Of a stretch of DNA of 64,000 bases, positions 54,353-60,963 are shown in pieces; the first letter of the stretch is position 1; each line of letters opens with the position of its first letter. The stretch spans positions 1,054,001-1,118,000 of the forward strand of contig NZ_JACBYQ010000001.1 of NCBI RefSeq assembly GCF_013408295.1, written 5' to 3'. The notes beneath the pieces were generated by a model. That model was not told the DNA's origin. It ran no database searches and saw only the letters and a program-made list of their open reading frames with translations. Source of the stretch: Psychromicrobium silvestre (GTDB taxonomy: Bacteria > Actinomycetota > Actinomycetes > Actinomycetales > Micrococcaceae). The position numbers were made by a program, and so were the translations under genes.

Positions 54353-54853
54353 ATGCGAACTACCACCCGCAAGACGATGTTCCTTTCCGCGGCGGGCATC
54401 GCCCTGGTCGGCGGCGTGACGGCCTGCGCGCCCACGGCCAGCCAGCCCAGTAACGCGGCCAACCAGGATGCCTCAAGTCAAAGCACCTCAAGCCAGCAGA
54501 GCTCAAGCAATGCCAGCAGCTCCAGTTCGGGAACTTCGGGGACATCTGGGACAAGCAGCTATCAGGACGGCAGCTACAGCGCGGATGGTCATTACGTCTC
54601 CCCCAATGGCGAGGAGACTATTGGCGTCAAACTCACCCTGGCCTCGGGGGTGATCACCGATCTGCAACTCACTCCGCACCCCACCAGCCCTAACACGCAG
54701 CAGTTCCAGGGCGAATTCATTTCCGGCATCAACGCCATTGTGGTGGGTAAGAAGATCGACGAGTTGAATGTTTCCAAGGTAGCCGGATCCTCGTTGACCA
54801 GTGGCGGCTTCAATCAGGCCATTACAGAAATTGAGAAAGAGGCCAGCAAATAA
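54353..54853 (+). CDS. FMN-binding-domain lipoprotein
   Basis: 166 residues. Signal peptide with lipobox VTAC (Cys25), a Ser-rich spacer (26-70) and an FMN-binding domain (72-166) of the NqrC/RnfG/FMN_bind type. The flavin attachment site, usually SGAT, here reads VAGSSLTSGGF (144-153), with Ser in place of Thr. Expected to be flavinylated outside the membrane by the ApbE encoded next. Strong AGGAGG at 54343-54348. Confidence 0.85.
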   Translation: MRTTTRKTMFLSAAGIALVGGVTACAPTASQPSNAANQDASSQSTSSQQSSSNASSSSSGTSGTSGTSSYQDGSYSADGHYVSPNGEETIGVKLTLASGVITDLQLTPHPTSPNTQQFQGEFISGINAIVVGKKIDELNVSKVAGSSLTSGGFNQAITEIEKEASK

Positions 54854-55731
54854 CTGGCAGCCAGCCCGGTTCCAGGGCTGAATACCGCTTCGAGGCAATC
54901 GGGACGCACTGGCAGATCGACACTCTTGAGGAGCTAGATATCGAAATCCGTGGGGCTCTGCGCACCGTAATAGCGGATTACGATCAAGGTTTCTCCCGAT
55001 TCCGGCAAGATTCCGTGGTCTCTCAGGCCGGGGCGGTTCCGGGGTATTACCGCCTGCCCCAGGCAGCAGCCAGCCTGGAACCGCTCTACCGCTCTCTTTA
55101 TCGACTGACCGAGGGTGCTATGACGCCGCTTATCACCGGATCCCTTGAGCACCTAGGCTACGACGCTGACTACACCCTGCGCGCGCAACCGGGTTTTTTG
55201 CCGTCCCCGGACTGGGCTGAGGCAATCGACTGGCACGGAACCCGCTTGCAGACCAAGCAGCCGGTGGTGCTCGACGTTGGTGCTGCGGGCAAAGGCCAGC
55301 TCGTCGATCTATTGGCCGCAGAGTTAGAGCGGCACGGTGTGGGGAACTACGTGATCGACGCCAGTGGCGACCTATTCGCGCAGGGCCTGACGCTGCGGGT
55401 GGGCCTAGAACATCCGCTCGATCCGAGCACAGCCATCGGAGTGGTGGAACTTGACCACGGCTATCCAGCCATCTGCGCCTCCGCATCGAATCGGCGTAGC
55501 TGGGGAGCTGGCCTACATCATGTGCTTGATGGCAGCACCGGAAAGCCGGTGCAGACCGTGCTAGCCAGTTGGGCGCTCGCCCAGGACGCCATGCAGGCCG
55601 ATGCGCTGGCCACCGCTCTGTTCTTCACCGACCACGCAACGCTGGCCAAAGAATTCGACTTTGCCAGCGTCCGAATGTTCTCCACCGGGCGCGCCGAAAT
55701 CTCGGACAATTTTGATGGAGAGATCTTTTGA
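54850..55731 (+). CDS. apbE: FAD:protein FMN transferase (ApbE), no standard start codon
   Basis: Attaches FMN from FAD to Ser/Thr of partner proteins. The frame is open from 54835, and its N-terminal coding YRFEAIGTHWQI and SRFRQDS match ApbE. LDVGAAGKGQLVD, DASGDLF and the late ADALATALFF are also typical. No ATG, GTG or TTG is in frame before 55015, where a GTG would remove the SRFR motif. ATA at 54850 overlaps the lipoprotein TAA (ATAA) with AGAGG 8 nt before. ATGA is the usual coupling overlap; one G-to-A change would give what is seen. So: ATA start, loss of expression, or truncated protein from 55015. Confidence 0.72.
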   Translation: MTGSQPGSRAEYRFEAIGTHWQIDTLEELDIEIRGALRTVIADYDQGFSRFRQDSVVSQAGAVPGYYRLPQAAASLEPLYRSLYRLTEGAMTPLITGSLEHLGYDADYTLRAQPGFLPSPDWAEAIDWHGTRLQTKQPVVLDVGAAGKGQLVDLLAAELERHGVGNYVIDASGDLFAQGLTLRVGLEHPLDPSTAIGVVELDHGYPAICASASNRRSWGAGLHHVLDGSTGKPVQTVLASWALAQDAMQADALATALFFTDHATLAKEFDFASVRMFSTGRAEISDNFDGEIF

Positions 55732-55745
55732 GGAGAATTCAGCCA

Positions 55746-57260
55746 ATGAGAGCACAACTCGACGGCTTTCTAGGCCGCTTCACCATGTATCGCTTGGTGC
55801 TGTCGGTGCTGACGATTCTGCTGGTCTATTCCTTAGTGTTGGACCTGCTGGGCTGGTTGACCTTCGGCATTGGTGCGATGCTGCTCAGCGCGCTGCTGAG
55901 CGTCGCGATCTGCACCCTGGTGAGCTGGGTGCTGGCCAAAATCTTCCGAGTCAAGGCTCATCTAGAATCCAGCCTGATCACCGGATTGTTAGTCTATTTC
56001 CTGTTCTGGCCCACTTTGGATCCCACCGCGCTCGGCGGAATAGCACTAGCCGCCGCCTTAGCCGGTGCCTCAAAATTCCTGCTCGCCTATCGCCGTCGTC
56101 ATATCTTCAATCCGGCAGCCATCGGAGCCTTCCTGGTCTCCTTGACAGGCCTCAACCTGGCCACCTGGTGGACTGCTACTCCTGCCATGCTCTGGCTGCT
56201 GATCCCGGCGGCCTTGCTCGTGCTCTACCGCAGTTCTAAGCTCATCTTTGCCGGTATTTTTGTGGTGGTCGCGGCGGGTGTTATTTCTCTTCGTCTGATC
56301 GGTAGTGGCCTTGACCCGGCCACCGCGCTGAGCCAGCCGTTCGGCTCGCTTCCGGTGCTGTTCTTCGTCGGATTCATGCTCTCTGAACCGCTCACCCTGC
56401 CACCCCGTCGCTATCAGCAATGGCTGCTAGCCGGCGTCGTAGGACTGCTCTTCTCAGTCCCATTCCAGCTTGGCCCGATCTTCTCCAGCCCTGAGCTAGC
56501 CCTGCTGATCGGCAACCTCCTGAGCTTCCTGCTCGGGCAGCGCCGCGGGCTGCGGCTGAAATTCAACGGTTCCAGGGAGCTCACCCCGAGCAGCCGGGAG
56601 TACCTCTTCAGCTCGGACCGGCCGGCCCGCTTCGCCGCCGGGCAGTATATGGAGCTATCGCTGCCTCACCGCAAGGCCGATCTGCGCGGTATGCGACGCG
56701 TCTTCAGCCTCACCACGGACCCGCACGACGGCGGCCAGCTCGCCTTCGCTTTGCGGCTCGCCGAGCCTTCCAGTAGCTTCAAGAAAACCCTCAACACCCT
56801 GCGGGCCGGTGAGGTGATCTCGGCCACCGGGGTGTGGGGAGATTTTGTACTGCCACGTGGGCACTCCCCCTTGCTGCTGTTGGCTGCCGGAGTGGGTATC
56901 ACGCCGTTCATGAGCCAATTGCGATCGGTGCTACACACCCCTGCTGAGCACCGCGATGTGGTACTGGTCTATACCGTGACTTCGCTGGAAGAGTTCGGTT
57001 ACCGCCAGGAACTCACCGAATTGTGTGCCGCCGACGGGGTACGGCTGGTGGTCTGTTGCCCGGTGGATCCTGAAATCACCGGAGCCGAACACCTAGCTTC
57101 CGGCTACCCCTCCGCCGAGCAGTTGGCTGCTGCCGTTCCCGATATCGGCATTCGACGGGTCTATGCTTCGGGATCCCCCGCGTTCGTGGCTCACGCCAGG
57201 GCTTCGGGACACCGCGCCGGAGCTCGAAAGGTACATACCGATAGCTTCCTGGGTTACTAG
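55746..57260 (+). CDS. RnfD/NqrB-like membrane domain fused to FNR reductase
   Basis: About 504 residues. Eight or so helices (15-270) with FWPTLDP and HIFNPAAIGAFLVSLTGL like RnfD/NqrB; then a ferredoxin-NADP reductase module (about 280-504) with RRVFSLTTDP for FAD and AAGVGITPFMSQ for NAD(P). It would move electrons from cytosolic NAD(P)H through the membrane to the flavin lipoprotein. ATG 55746 follows GAGGAG; a TTG at 55728 overlaps the apbE stop. Third gene of the module. Confidence 0.88.
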   Translation: MRAQLDGFLGRFTMYRLVLSVLTILLVYSLVLDLLGWLTFGIGAMLLSALLSVAICTLVSWVLAKIFRVKAHLESSLITGLLVYFLFWPTLDPTALGGIALAAALAGASKFLLAYRRRHIFNPAAIGAFLVSLTGLNLATWWTATPAMLWLLIPAALLVLYRSSKLIFAGIFVVVAAGVISLRLIGSGLDPATALSQPFGSLPVLFFVGFMLSEPLTLPPRRYQQWLLAGVVGLLFSVPFQLGPIFSSPELALLIGNLLSFLLGQRRGLRLKFNGSRELTPSSREYLFSSDRPARFAAGQYMELSLPHRKADLRGMRRVFSLTTDPHDGGQLAFALRLAEPSSSFKKTLNTLRAGEVISATGVWGDFVLPRGHSPLLLLAAGVGITPFMSQLRSVLHTPAEHRDVVLVYTVTSLEEFGYRQELTELCAADGVRLVVCCPVDPEITGAEHLASGYPSAEQLAAAVPDIGIRRVYASGSPAFVAHARASGHRAGARKVHTDSFLGY

Positions 57261-57316
57261 TCTGCCGTCGGTTTGCTCTTCGGGGAGGCTTAGCTGCTAA
57301 ACTCGATAAGTCCCTT

Positions 57317-57389
57317 GCCCTCGTAGCTCAGGGGATAGAGCGGTTGCCTCCGGAGCAACAGGCCGTAGGTTCGAATCCTATCGAGGGCA
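57317..57389 (+). tRNA. tRNA-Arg (CCG)
   Basis: Full cloverleaf: acceptor GCCCTCG/CGAGGGC, D-stem GCTC/GAGC, anticodon stem GTTGC/GCAAC with loop CTCCGGA (anticodon CCG), T-loop TTCGAAT on GTAGG/CCTAT. Discriminator A; CCA is not encoded. Confidence 0.97.
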
Positions 57390-57434
57390 CTTTTCTTCGT
57401 TTCTCGCGTATTTTTCGCGCATCACCTCACCGAT

Positions 57435-57466
57435 TTGACCCGTCCCCATGGGGACGGGTTTACGGT
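57435..57466 (+). promoter_or_regulatory. MerR-type promoter with palindromic operator
   Basis: TTGACC (57435-57440), 20-bp spacer, TACGGT (57461-57466). A perfect 22-bp palindrome, arms ACCCGTCCCCA / TGGGGACGGGT (57438-57459), fills the spacer. Over-long spacers with a central dyad are the hallmark of MerR-controlled promoters. It also might act as terminator hairpin for the tRNA. Confidence 0.72.
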
Positions 57467-57485
57467 TTTCCCAGAGGTGATGAAA

Positions 57486-58481
57486 ATGTTGGCACAAGAA
57501 CTGGCGCGGAAGCTCGCCATTAGCGTCAAGGCGCTGCGCTATTTTGAAGACCGCGGGCTGATCGATCCACCGCGTCTGGACAATGGTTATCGCGATTACT
57601 CCGAACAGGATCAAGCCGCCATCCAACACATCCTTGAGCTACGGGCACTCGGATTTTCGGTGGAGGGAACCAGGCCGTTTATCGATTGCCTACGGCTGGG
57701 GCATCAGCAAGGCGATGACTGCCTTGACTCGCTCGCGGCCTATCAACGCGAAATTGACCGAATCGATGAAACCATCGCCCAGCTCAGGCAGAACCGAGAG
57801 CTGCTACGCGAACGACTGTTTACGGCGGCAGCCCGAGGCTTTCCGCTCGATCAGCATGACCATTCAAGTCAGCAGGAAGAGGATAACGAAATGTCCAGCG
57901 GCCACGACTATGAGAAGTTACCGCCAAATCTCCCGGCGCCTCAGGACGATGGCCAAGCGGCCCACCTGCCGGGTCTCGCCTTGCCCGGATTGACCCTGGA
58001 ATCGACAGGGCTCACCCCGGTGAGCCTGTCCGGGATGGGTGAGCAACGCTGGGTGCTTTTCATTTACCCAACCACCGGAGTGCCCGGAACCGATATGCCG
58101 CTGGGCTGGAATGAGATTCCCGGTGCCCGGGGTTGCACCCCGGAGGCTTGCGGTTTCCGGGACAATCTCGAGGAGCTGCGTGCTGCCGGAGCCAGCGCCA
58201 TTTACGGGCTCTCCGGCCAGGGCAAGGACTATCAGAGCGAGTTGGTAACCCGCTTGCACTTGCCCTACGAGCTTCTAAGCGATCCGCAGCTGCGGCTTGG
58301 CCACGAACTCTCGCTGCCGACCTTCCAAGCGGAGGGCCGACCATATTACAAACGACTCACCATGGTGCTTTCCGGTCAGCGGATTGAGCACGTGTTCTAT
58401 CCGATTTTTCCACCGGATGAACACGCCGCTCAAGTCCGCGATTGGCTGCTGGCAAATCCAGTCAGTCCGGTCAGTCCGTGA
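57486..58481 (+). CDS. MerR regulator fused to peroxiredoxin
   Basis: 331 residues. MerR helix-turn-helix at 1-70 (LAISVKALRYFEDRGLID), coiled-coil at about 75-115 (REIDRIDETIAQLRQNRELL), a hydrophilic linker (120-145), and a peroxiredoxin domain (about 150-328) with GARGCTPEACGFRDN: Cys217 and Cys222 are peroxidatic and resolving candidates. The second half looks like a stand-alone peroxiredoxin family (YPTTGVPGTD, LPTFQAEG, EHVFYPIFPPDEHA). Redox sensing by the Prx part to switch the HTH part is inferred. ATG 57486 follows AGAGG. Confidence 0.88.
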   Translation: MLAQELARKLAISVKALRYFEDRGLIDPPRLDNGYRDYSEQDQAAIQHILELRALGFSVEGTRPFIDCLRLGHQQGDDCLDSLAAYQREIDRIDETIAQLRQNRELLRERLFTAAARGFPLDQHDHSSQQEEDNEMSSGHDYEKLPPNLPAPQDDGQAAHLPGLALPGLTLESTGLTPVSLSGMGEQRWVLFIYPTTGVPGTDMPLGWNEIPGARGCTPEACGFRDNLEELRAAGASAIYGLSGQGKDYQSELVTRLHLPYELLSDPQLRLGHELSLPTFQAEGRPYYKRLTMVLSGQRIEHVFYPIFPPDEHAAQVRDWLLANPVSPVSP

Positions 58482-58683
58482 AGCTAAGTGCCCGCTCTGC
58501 GAGTGCAACCTTGAGGATTGACATCGCCTTTGGCCCCATTCCGTGAAGTCTGAGCAGGTCACTCGCCGAAGCCCCATCCAGGGACTCTATGGTGAAGTAA
58601 CCGGCCCCAGCCAGCGCTCGGGTGGCTGGGGCTCCGATCTTTGGAAGAGGCGTTCCGTCCTGGTTTGTCCTCGACTCATTCAT
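58471..58683 (-). CDS. Small helix-hairpin-helix protein
   Basis: 70 residues. Two HhH-like elements, LPKIGAPATRALAGAGY and LLRLHGMGPKAMSIL; likely a nucleic-acid-binding protein. Its last 11 bases overlap the end of the convergent MerR-peroxiredoxin gene. Confidence 0.8.
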   Translation of the reverse strand: MNESRTNQDGTPLPKIGAPATRALAGAGYFTIESLDGASASDLLRLHGMGPKAMSILKVALAERALSFTD

Positions 58684-58692
58684 GCAGGCAGT

Positions 58693-59259
58693 TTAGCGGA
58701 GCCCGTGCCGGTACAGATCCCGCAAGAGCGAGACCTCGGCACCATGGTGAATCACCTCGCGATTAATGTGCAGGATCAGATCACTCAGCGGAAACTGCCC
58801 GAAATGCTCGCCTTCAGCGTCCCCGCAAGGAGCTGCCAAAGCCTGCTCATCGAGAGCCGAAACCGCTGAGATCCACCGTTGATAGGCTTCGTCGAGCTGC
58901 TCCAAGGCATCGGCCGCGGTGCCCGGATAAGGGTAATCTCGCTGATCCACAGCTGGTCCGTTGAAGTGCGAGGCATTGCGTTCTCCCAGCACCCCGGTGA
59001 TCACATGGCCCAGCCGCCAAGCAATCGTGGTCACCGGTGCGGGATAGGGCGGTGGATGCTCGAAATCGATCAAGAATTCGCCGGAGCCTCGCTGTCCCAC
59101 ATTCTTCAAAGTCTCGCCCCGACGTCGAACATTCCAGGCGCGCGGAACTGGCTCCCAGAAGTATTCCTCATCACTCAAGTTATTGAGTCTGGGTCGTAAT
59201 TGGTTCTCCCAATGCCAGCTCAGTTGCTCCGCCAGTTGAGTGGCCAAGGTCCGGCTCAT
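58693..59259 (-). CDS. DinB-superfamily protein
   Basis: 188 residues, four-helix DinB fold. Metal-ligand candidates are the His in WRLGHVITG and the two His in REVIHHGAEVSLLRDLY. DinB-like enzymes include bacillithiol/mycothiol transferases; a thiol role is possible. Start overlaps the stop of the DJ-1 gene by 4 bp. Confidence 0.87.
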   Translation of the reverse strand: MSRTLATQLAEQLSWHWENQLRPRLNNLSDEEYFWEPVPRAWNVRRRGETLKNVGQRGSGEFLIDFEHPPPYPAPVTTIAWRLGHVITGVLGERNASHFNGPAVDQRDYPYPGTAADALEQLDEAYQRWISAVSALDEQALAAPCGDAEGEHFGQFPLSDLILHINREVIHHGAEVSLLRDLYRHGLR

Positions 59260-60000: not shown

Positions 60001-60963
60001 ATGATCGAGACTTCCGCCCGGCTCTTGCAATTGCTTTCGCTGCTGCAAGTGCGCCGAGAGTGGACCGGATCTGCACTGGCCGAGCGAATGAGCGTGACCG
60101 AACGGACGGTACGCCGCGACGTAGATAAGCTACGCAGCCTGGGCTATCCTATCCATGCTTCCCCTGGAGTGGCGGGTGGTTACCAGCTGGGAGCCGGGGC
60201 TGATTTACCTCCCCTGCTGCTCGATGACGACGAAGCTCTTGCTGTAGCGCTCGGTCTCAGCACGGTGGCTGTTGGCCCGGTGGCCGGAATTGGTGAGGCC
60301 TCCATCCGTGCACTGAGGAAGCTAGAGCAGGTGCTACCACCAAGGTTGCGGCCTCGTTTCGCCTCCCTACAGGGGGCCGTGAGCCGGATCGCGGCGCCCA
60401 CGGACGCGGTGGAACCGCAATTGCTAACCCAGATTTCCGCAGCCATCTCGGAACGGCGGGTGCTGAGCCTGCGCTATCAGAAGCACGACGGCGAGGCCTC
60501 CTCGCGGCTGATCGAACCTTATCGACTGGTGGATTCAGGGCCACGCTGGTACCTGCTGGCTTGGGATCTACAGCGCGAAGATTGGCGGACCTTCAGGGTG
60601 GACCGGGTGCAGGCTAAGCCCACCGAACGGCAGCGCTTTCTGCCGCGTGCCTTACCGGCCAAGGATCTAGCCGCTTATGTTCATCGAGCCATTACCCGCT
60701 CGCCGTATCGCTACGATCTGGTGGTACGAGTTCAAGCCCCAGCTTCCCTGGTCTCGGAGCATTTCTCGGTATCCACGGCGGTGCTGGAAACGGAAGCTGC
60801 CGGTATCACCCTGATGCGGTTGGGTTGGGATTCGCTTGACTCCCCACTGGGACGTCTGGCAGCCAGCGGTCTAGATTTCGAGATTCTGGAGCCCGCAGAA
60901 CTGCGCGAACGAGCCGAGCTAATGGCCCAAAGACTACTCAAAGCCACCGCCCCACCCACCTGA
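60001..60963 (+). CDS. HTH-WYL regulator (YafY type)
   Basis: 320 residues. DeoR-like winged helix at 1-60 (SVTERTVRRDVDKLRSLGYPI), a helical middle, a WYL domain (about 140-220, GPRWYLLAWDLQREDW) and the WCX C-terminus. Divergent from the DJ-1/DinB genes, which it probably controls through 59962-59978. Confidence 0.92.
   Translation: MIETSARLLQLLSLLQVRREWTGSALAERMSVTERTVRRDVDKLRSLGYPIHASPGVAGGYQLGAGADLPPLLLDDDEALAVALGLSTVAVGPVAGIGEASIRALRKLEQVLPPRLRPRFASLQGAVSRIAAPTDAVEPQLLTQISAAISERRVLSLRYQKHDGEASSRLIEPYRLVDSGPRWYLLAWDLQREDWRTFRVDRVQAKPTERQRFLPRALPAKDLAAYVHRAITRSPYRYDLVVRVQAPASLVSEHFSVSTAVLETEAAGITLMRLGWDSLDSPLGRLAASGLDFEILEPAELRERAELMAQRLLKATAPPT

Follow-up and report, generated by a model that had tools for sequence, protein, structure and literature searches.

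How might a gene work that joins a MerR-type DNA-binding domain to a peroxiredoxin-fold domain and that is preceded by a promoter with a palindrome in its spacer? This question is raised by a fusion gene found in a 64,000-nucleotide stretch of the genome of Psychromicrobium silvestre (in the following, the window), and by its many relatives, which database records name merely 'MerR family transcriptional regulator' or 'redoxin family protein'. The reading that we favor, with a probability of roughly 0.58, is that of a TipA-like, one-gene, autoregulated module for thiol/peroxide stress, and it would sharpen the naming of these genes in the records.

The fusion gene and its promoter

The MerR-peroxiredoxin fusion gene occupies positions 57486..58481 of the forward strand and encodes a protein of 331 amino acids, followed by a stop codon. 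Its ATG at 57486 was assigned as the coding start by alignment with relatives, although the in-frame ATG at 57480 could serve as well; the −35 element begins at position 57435, with a TTG that was used as the start in a mechanically generated list of open reading frames, and the interval 57435-58481 consequently comprises promoter and gene. That a DNA-binding and a peroxiredoxin part reside in one polypeptide, as the sequence-only reading of this DNA had proposed, is borne out by two Pfam domains that lie above their cut-offs in the same 331-residue frame: MerR_1 on residues 4-61 (5.3e-14; 52.5 bits versus a cut-off of 21.6) and Redoxin (Redoxin/AhpC-TSA) on residues 165-311 (2.5e-8). The Pfam MerR model, which represents the N-terminal winged helix-turn-helix (HTH), reaches 38.2 bits against a cut-off of 28.2. 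According to Pfam and AlphaFold2, the MerR half (57486..57839, forward strand) consists of a winged HTH (residues about 1-75) and a dimerization helix (residues 80-118), the latter a long helix following the HTH as in the MerR family and modeled here as part of a monomer only. Block pLDDT values range from 89 to 98 as far as residue 110 and fall below 50 in the linker (residues 124-145) and in the loop around Cys217 (residues 215-221). The peroxiredoxin fold of residues 165-331 (57978..58478, forward strand) was matched by VIA-align structure comparison, the match list of which is filled by this domain.

A scan of species genomes yielded at least 80 relatives, at least 51 of them with the MerR half (by our own reading of the rows), and of 197 genomes covered by a family search, 24 gave a match, which spans the full length in 12 (by our own reading of the table). 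Locus L006 represents the same gene as L001 and was left out throughout. The promoter was assessed in 59 fused loci, among which near-copies are present (53 distinct 32-mers); four minus-strand loci (L088, L089, L093 and L097) stand outside this set and inside the later counts. With L054 (short frame) and L080 (broken frame) set aside, the start-codon counts comprise 61 genes, 41 of which are non-redundant at 80%. Two of the seven genomes of the own genus in the family search carry the fusion gene, which has been gained or lost in a patchy fashion next to a tRNA.

MerR proteins activate transcription by twisting promoter DNA. Upstream of the fusion gene, a −35 element (TTGACC; 57435..57440, forward strand) and a −10 element (TACGGT; 57461..57466, forward strand) are separated by 20 bp, and the spacer is filled by the perfect 22-bp palindrome ACCCGTCCCCATGGGGACGGGT (57438..57459, forward strand), a putative operator. 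All 59 fused loci possess a pattern of this type (TTGAC-type, N20, TA...T) within 70 nt of the start, with TTGAC in 58 loci, CTGAC in L050, and TA...T at exactly 20 bp in every one of them; CTGACC was let into the pattern only after L050 had been seen. The same pattern occurred in 1 of 5900 shuffles and twice among 2030 further 70-nt segments of these fused loci. In register, a mean of 8.73 of the 11 pairs of the dyad are symmetric, and at most 5.53 when the register is shifted by 1 to 4 bases. Among the 41 non-redundant genes, several pairs are symmetric more often than is expected for independent columns, namely 8/21 (38 versus 28.4 genes), 7/22 (29 versus 22.4), 9/20 (32 versus 26.4) and the central pair 14/15 (19 versus 11.8); pairs 6/23, 10/19 and 13/16 vary without an excess of symmetry, and the remaining pairs barely vary. 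A stricter operator pattern misses the fused loci L013 and L050 and has zero matches in the non-fused members of a set of 110 loci. The sequence-only reading had claimed a MerR-type promoter of the gene's own, with a 20-bp spacer and a perfect 22-bp palindrome, and had named the absence of the palindrome upstream of orthologs as the finding that would speak against it; dyad and 20-bp spacer are present upstream of 41/41 non-redundant fused genes, and this objection consequently falls away.

In the genome of P. silvestre itself, no second operator site was detected by the palindrome with up to 2 mismatches, by the strict operator pattern, or by the 32-mer with up to 3 mismatches. Since two matches to the reversed control pattern arose in this genome by chance, single extra operator matches would in any case mean little. 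For the corresponding scan of other genomes, 10 of the 11 others with a full-length match were chosen along with 9 from among the 51 fused loci, and 18 genomes were searched, two of which (G096 and G203) seem to represent a single assembly. Seventeen of the 18 contain one operator site; the genome G202 contains two, the second of which is located upstream of an unfused MerR paralog, a protein that has a C-terminal CGC in addition to C68 and C79. Regulation of further genes by way of similar palindromes had been suggested as well; with a single site in the own genome and in 17 of the 18 others, it is not supported. The suggested self-regulation, for its part, is supported by a conserved operator at the own promoter and by the finding that nearly every genome searched has just one site. 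In the flanks of 38 loci, no family of open reading frames (100 amino acids or more) is common to more than 5; the one neighbor cluster (5 of the 38 loci) looks composition-biased and was dismissed as probably consisting of non-coding reading frames. Because there is a single site per genome and no conserved neighbor, the module looks self-contained and autoregulated. We regard autoregulation by the fusion protein through the dyad as highly probable.

Conserved cysteines and the unfused sister regulators

Two cysteines of the MerR half are found in 62/62 fused sequences: Cys68 (codon 57687..57689, forward strand) is positioned in the last turn of helix 60-70, and Cys79 (codon 57720..57722, forward strand) directly precedes the dimerization helix. 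In the peroxiredoxin domain, Cys217 and Cys222 (CTPEAC; codons 58134..58151, forward strand) correspond to the peroxidatic/resolving pair of PrxQ; the segment aligns with GCTKEAC of 5epf, and the two cysteines are five residues apart, as in PrxQ/BCP. Each of them is present in 61 of the 62 fused sequences, the sole exception being L080 with its broken frame. The numbering of this pair in the sequence-only reading is correct with the start at ATG 57486, and the doubt raised there, that these cysteines might not be conserved in fused homologs, is dispelled by their retention. Its choice of Cys217/Cys222 as the thiols of the switch, however, captured only half of the matter: the pair is conserved, but the invariant C68 and C79 of the MerR half had been overlooked.

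The canonical active-site motif of peroxiredoxins is PxxxT/SxxC. The fusion proteins have no in-register match to it, as Ala214 (61/62) stands at C−3, where Thr/Ser is expected, and an insert precedes Cys217. Peroxidase activity is not assured because A214 replaces the Thr/Ser of the motif, and A214 together with the insert led us to treat the domain as a member of the Redoxin superfamily and not to class it as a canonical peroxiredoxin; nevertheless, we infer that the domain may possess such an activity. The same alanine and the long insert (YPxTGxPGxDxPxGWDxIPGARGC) also distinguish the fusion from the PrxQ/BCP proteins of known structure to which it was compared (5epf, 3gkm, 3ixr).

When the MerR half was used for a search of 296 genomes of the phylum, matches were obtained in 20, and 30 of 41 places were analyzed. 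Cys68 and Cys79 are kept in all ten of the closest unfused proteins (the nine best unfused MerRs plus L130); among 19 weaker relatives, 3 have both cysteines at the aligned positions, 10 have one, and 6 have neither. Since C68/C79 are also common to unfused sisters, they need not concern the peroxiredoxin. A thioredoxin gene lies directly downstream in eight of the ten sisters (L133-L139 and L151, not L140 and L130), and seven of these eight match a palindrome of the type CTTGACG-TCGG-CGTCAAG, a pattern written after those loci had been viewed. Each of the ten sisters (L130, L133-L140, L151) has one or more additional Cys residues at positions 121-135; in 38 of the 41 fused proteins, the stretch from residue 91 to the peroxiredoxin domain is free of Cys. 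Judged by gene order, the eight thioredoxin-linked proteins are a MerR subfamily that is possibly an unstudied regulator of thioredoxin. Their arrangement is similar to that of SCO5437-SCO5438 of S. coelicolor, of which the loci are probably orthologs. The available portions of two papers describe SCO5437 as a MerR regulator (PMC6637917) and SCO5438 as trxA2 (PMC9952706). This MerR-thioredoxin pair of Streptomyces resembles the fusion in its C68/C79, its upstream palindrome and its thiol-redox partner, and it differs in that the genes are separate, the enzyme is a thioredoxin, the palindrome is another one, and an extra C-terminal Cys is present. The subfamily of MerR proteins with C68/C79 is in this way linked to both thioredoxin and peroxiredoxin.

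A predicted internal start and the free peroxiredoxins

The two halves of the protein are joined by a linker that can barely be aligned among the relatives (proteins 41-53% identical to that of the window). Within it, an ATG at residue 136 is predicted to act as an internal translation start for a free peroxiredoxin of 196 amino acids (57891..58481, forward strand); it is preceded by the Shine-Dalgarno (SD)-like sequence AGGAAGAGG (57874..57882, forward strand), and the anti-SD duplex energy at this ATG amounts to −8.7 kcal/mol, versus −5.3 kcal/mol at the primary start of the gene. An ATG, GTG or TTG codon five to nine codons before the LPxxLP motif of the peroxiredoxin was found in 34 of the 41 non-redundant fused genes, predominantly at codon −6 (24/41) or −7 (8/41), while any codon from −20 to −8 reads as a start in at most 2/41; inside the LP motif, TTG/GTG also occurs at codon 0 (5/41) and at codon +4 (4/41). 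It should be noted that the position had been spotted in the same genes in which these counts were then made. The mean SD energy at the internal starts (−8.1 kcal/mol) is close to that at the primary starts (−8.3 kcal/mol) and far from that at other in-frame codons (−2.2 kcal/mol). Synonymous reshuffles gave a mean of −6.65 (sd 0.35) and a minimum of −7.6, and 0/300 were as low as the real value; the excess of 1.45 kcal/mol is modest because the amino acids of the linker themselves favor GGAG. Codon choice at −6 was also biased, with Val written as GTG in 6/6 cases (usage 45%) and Leu as TTG in 3/5 (usage 9%). The free peroxiredoxin would not be universal, because seven of the 41 genes are without the internal start (L027, L037 and L051, all of Leucobacter, as well as L040, L047, L055 and L097) and L096 and L046 possess the start codon without the SD. 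We consider it likely that a free peroxiredoxin is made from the internal start in the linker. The picture of one polypeptide drawn by the sequence-only reading holds with regard to the fusion but had missed this start, conserved as it is in 34/41 genes.

Peroxiredoxin-fold genes without the MerR half were placed in a common tree with the fused ones, built from 62 rows (41 fused and 21 free; other free loci, such as L102-L105, were left out). Fused and free genes are interleaved in this tree, in which 20 of 59 inner branches are well supported; the fused/free label needs 10 changes, 7 of which are forced by well-supported branches, and the named rows show the fusion in 11 actinobacterial families. 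In our reading, the free genes may have lost the MerR part and kept the peroxiredoxin, and repeated gain is also possible. Of 25 free loci, eight from actinobacteria were inspected closely, and each of them has a start codon at −6 or −7, the SD energies lying between −3.1 and −12.2; in L069, a free locus outside these eight, the 14 codons inspected contain no start codon. Still present in the locus L059 are the promoter, some 11 codons of MerR (tblastn, E 0.1 only) and, in a different frame from the MerR start, the peroxiredoxin start with its SD; the remainder of MerR has been deleted. In L060, a remnant of the MerR start is, by eye, joined to the linker; only the MerR tail is left in L099 (86% over 22 residues, tblastn), and L068 has a frame-broken MerR (tblastn) in a draft bin that may contain an assembly error. 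After the loss of most of its MerR, the promoter spacer of L059 (L059:2840-2990) measures 19 bp by our own count, versus 20; in this one case, it looks as though the promoter had been released from activator control.

Fusion copies were also noticed on Streptomyces plasmids of about 275-480 kb (L161 and L162, both linear records); among 128 matching plasmid records, the match extends over 80% or more of the fusion protein in 6, and there are also plasmid matches to the peroxiredoxin part only. No relative was confirmed among the viral contigs searched, and a search of an anti-phage library gave a single weak HTH match.

Proposed mechanism and competing explanations

In the mechanism that we propose, the full-length protein would dimerize via its MerR half and occupy the palindrome within the overly long spacer of 20 bp. 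Peroxide or disulfide stress would oxidize its cysteines, the peroxiredoxin pair C217/C222 first, and, in a relay version of the model, oxidation would then move on to C68/C79 adjoining the dimerization helix. The oxidized dimer would twist the DNA in the manner of MerR proteins, RNA polymerase would fire, and one transcript would give rise to both the full-length regulator-enzyme and, from the internal start in the flexible linker, the free peroxiredoxin, which would clear the oxidant and reset the switch. That the signal is thiol/peroxide stress seems probable, and activation by oxidation of the fusion protein is what we infer. The relay from the peroxiredoxin to C68/C79 is proposed tentatively; it is attractive because all ten sisters possess a C-terminal Cys that is missing from 38 of the 41 fused proteins. 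Slightly more speculative still is the wider notion of a bacterial peroxiredoxin-to-transcription-factor relay within a single polypeptide, the internal ribosome-binding site of which would set the ratio of relay to free scavenger. In it, C217/C222 would trap the peroxide and hand the disulfide over to C68/C79, which would lie at the hinge of the MerR dimer. If the relay is true, one gene would represent sensor, switch, enzyme and feedback.

Of the known systems, TipA of Streptomyces lividans is the closest in design; the available text of PMC7762955 describes it as autoregulated and as using two start codons to form the regulator TipAL and the free effector TipAS. There, too, a MerR half is combined with a C-terminal effector that reacts through a cysteine, so that sensor, activator and neutralizer are contained in one gene; for the fusion studied here, the likeness is seen in sequence signs only, namely an operator-bearing promoter of its own and a predicted second in-frame start. 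Unlike TipA, the effector has a peroxiredoxin fold instead of the drug-binding TipAS domain, the signal is presumably redox and not a thiopeptide, and the second product is a predicted one. Pfam gave no match to the TipAS domain (PF07739) up to E 1 in the fusion protein, which is therefore not a member of TipA. The comparison suggests that the TipA trick, an autoregulated MerR protein with a free effector from an internal start, has been reached with an enzyme as the effector.

SoxR and NmlR resemble the fusion in being regulators of redox/thiol stress with a MerR fold, and both act at a dyad in a long spacer, NmlR being short. SoxR differs in its 2Fe-2S cluster, and we know of no enzyme domain in either protein. 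Membership in SoxR was considered and rejected for the fusion protein (TIGR01950, 18.2 bits versus a cut-off of 116.9; cysteines of the Fe-S region absent in 38/41). In the portion of a MerR review that was available (PMC9909328), SoxR and NmlR are treated as redox regulators of the MerR type, NmlR answering formaldehyde and other stress, and that portion contains no word starting with 'peroxi' or 'fused'. Peroxiredoxin relays to transcription factors are described, in the available part of PMC5339411, for yeast and mammals as separate proteins; in the case of Orp1-Yap1, a thiol peroxidase hands oxidation to a transcription factor, the two being separate eukaryotic proteins. The fusion would place both functions in one bacterial polypeptide, and the transfer within it is proposed. 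No study of a MerR-peroxiredoxin fusion was found in the titles and abstract openings of the best literature matches, a search that lay mostly outside subscription journals; one candidate paper, PMC4991794, proved in its available part to be unrelated to the fusion.

The chief competitor of the relay assigns the whole of sensing to the MerR half: C68/C79 would react directly with an oxidant or an electrophile, and the peroxiredoxin would be the output enzyme only. Taken as a whole, we consider this rather unlikely, and direct sensing with the peroxiredoxin as output is nearly as likely as the relay. The unfused sisters with C68/C79 seem, by their position, to regulate a separate thioredoxin gene, an unfused MerR of Leifsonia has the same type of operator, and the internal start would in any case supply the enzyme as a separate protein; on the other hand, the extra Cys of the sisters (positions 121-135) is gone in 38/41 fused proteins, which fits the peroxiredoxin cysteines taking its place, and the fusion has been kept across the 11 actinobacterial families. 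Since the four thiols are invariant in one joined gene, single Cys changes could separate relay from direct sensing. The thiols of the MerR half might instead be ligands, with C68 and C79 forming a metal site together with H73, H75 and D77 that senses zinc, another thiophilic metal, or an electrophile. A C-x10-C spacing, the occurrence of H73 and H75 in 54/62 fused sequences each and of D77 in 62/62, and the finding that the best NCBIfam neighbors are CueR, ZntR and MerR all favor this idea; moreover, position 79 at the foot of the dimerization helix is presumably where Cys79 of ZntR and Cys82 of MerR bind metal. It is nonetheless improbable: the scores fall far below the cut-offs of these metal sensors (CueR, 53.3 of 147.4; ZntR, 45.0 of 167.95; MerR, 44.7 of 150.85 bits), residue 75 is Gln in the window protein, the partners are peroxiredoxin and thioredoxin and not metal pumps, and, with no Cys between residue 91 and the peroxiredoxin in 38/41 fused proteins, the C-terminal metal-loop pair is absent from them.

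The thiol/peroxide-stress module that we prefer also includes the free peroxiredoxin and the operator, and for each of these a different origin can be envisioned. The internal start could be a fossil of the joining of two genes, its codon and SD unused and only the full-length protein made. Its position is indeed that of the start of most free relatives inspected, and it has been lost in 7/41 fused genes; the persistence of the start codon, of the GTG/TTG choice and of the SD in an otherwise barely alignable linker, a mean SD strength equal to that of the primary start, and the several relatives that lost MerR and kept this start make disuse unlikely. The palindrome, in turn, is a G+C-rich perfect inverted repeat 47 bp past a tRNA-Arg gene and could be taken for the intrinsic terminator of the latter. 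A terminator scan, however, gave two sites in 57000-58700, neither of them at the palindrome, and 39 of the 40 fused loci scanned have no tRNA and yet carry the dyad at the same distance from the −35 and −10 elements. As the dyad is kept at loci without a tRNA, and in 41/41 fused genes overall, we rejected a tRNA terminator, the chance of which we regard as negligible, and retain the palindrome as the putative operator of the module.

The tRNA in question, tRNA-Arg(CCG), is located at 57317-57390 and precedes the fusion gene, as it likewise does in L087, a locus of the same genus. A tRNA-Gly called by ARAGORN at 60396-60483 lies inside and antisense to the open reading frame of a WYL regulator (60001-60963) and is probably a false positive. 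Just upstream of the fusion gene and its tRNA, three proteins are encoded in a row (54353-57260): one is small and lipoprotein-like, one belongs to the ApbE family (2.6e-28), and one, of 510 residues, has an NAD-binding reductase end; by the sequences of its members, this row looks like an extracytoplasmic flavin electron-transfer set.
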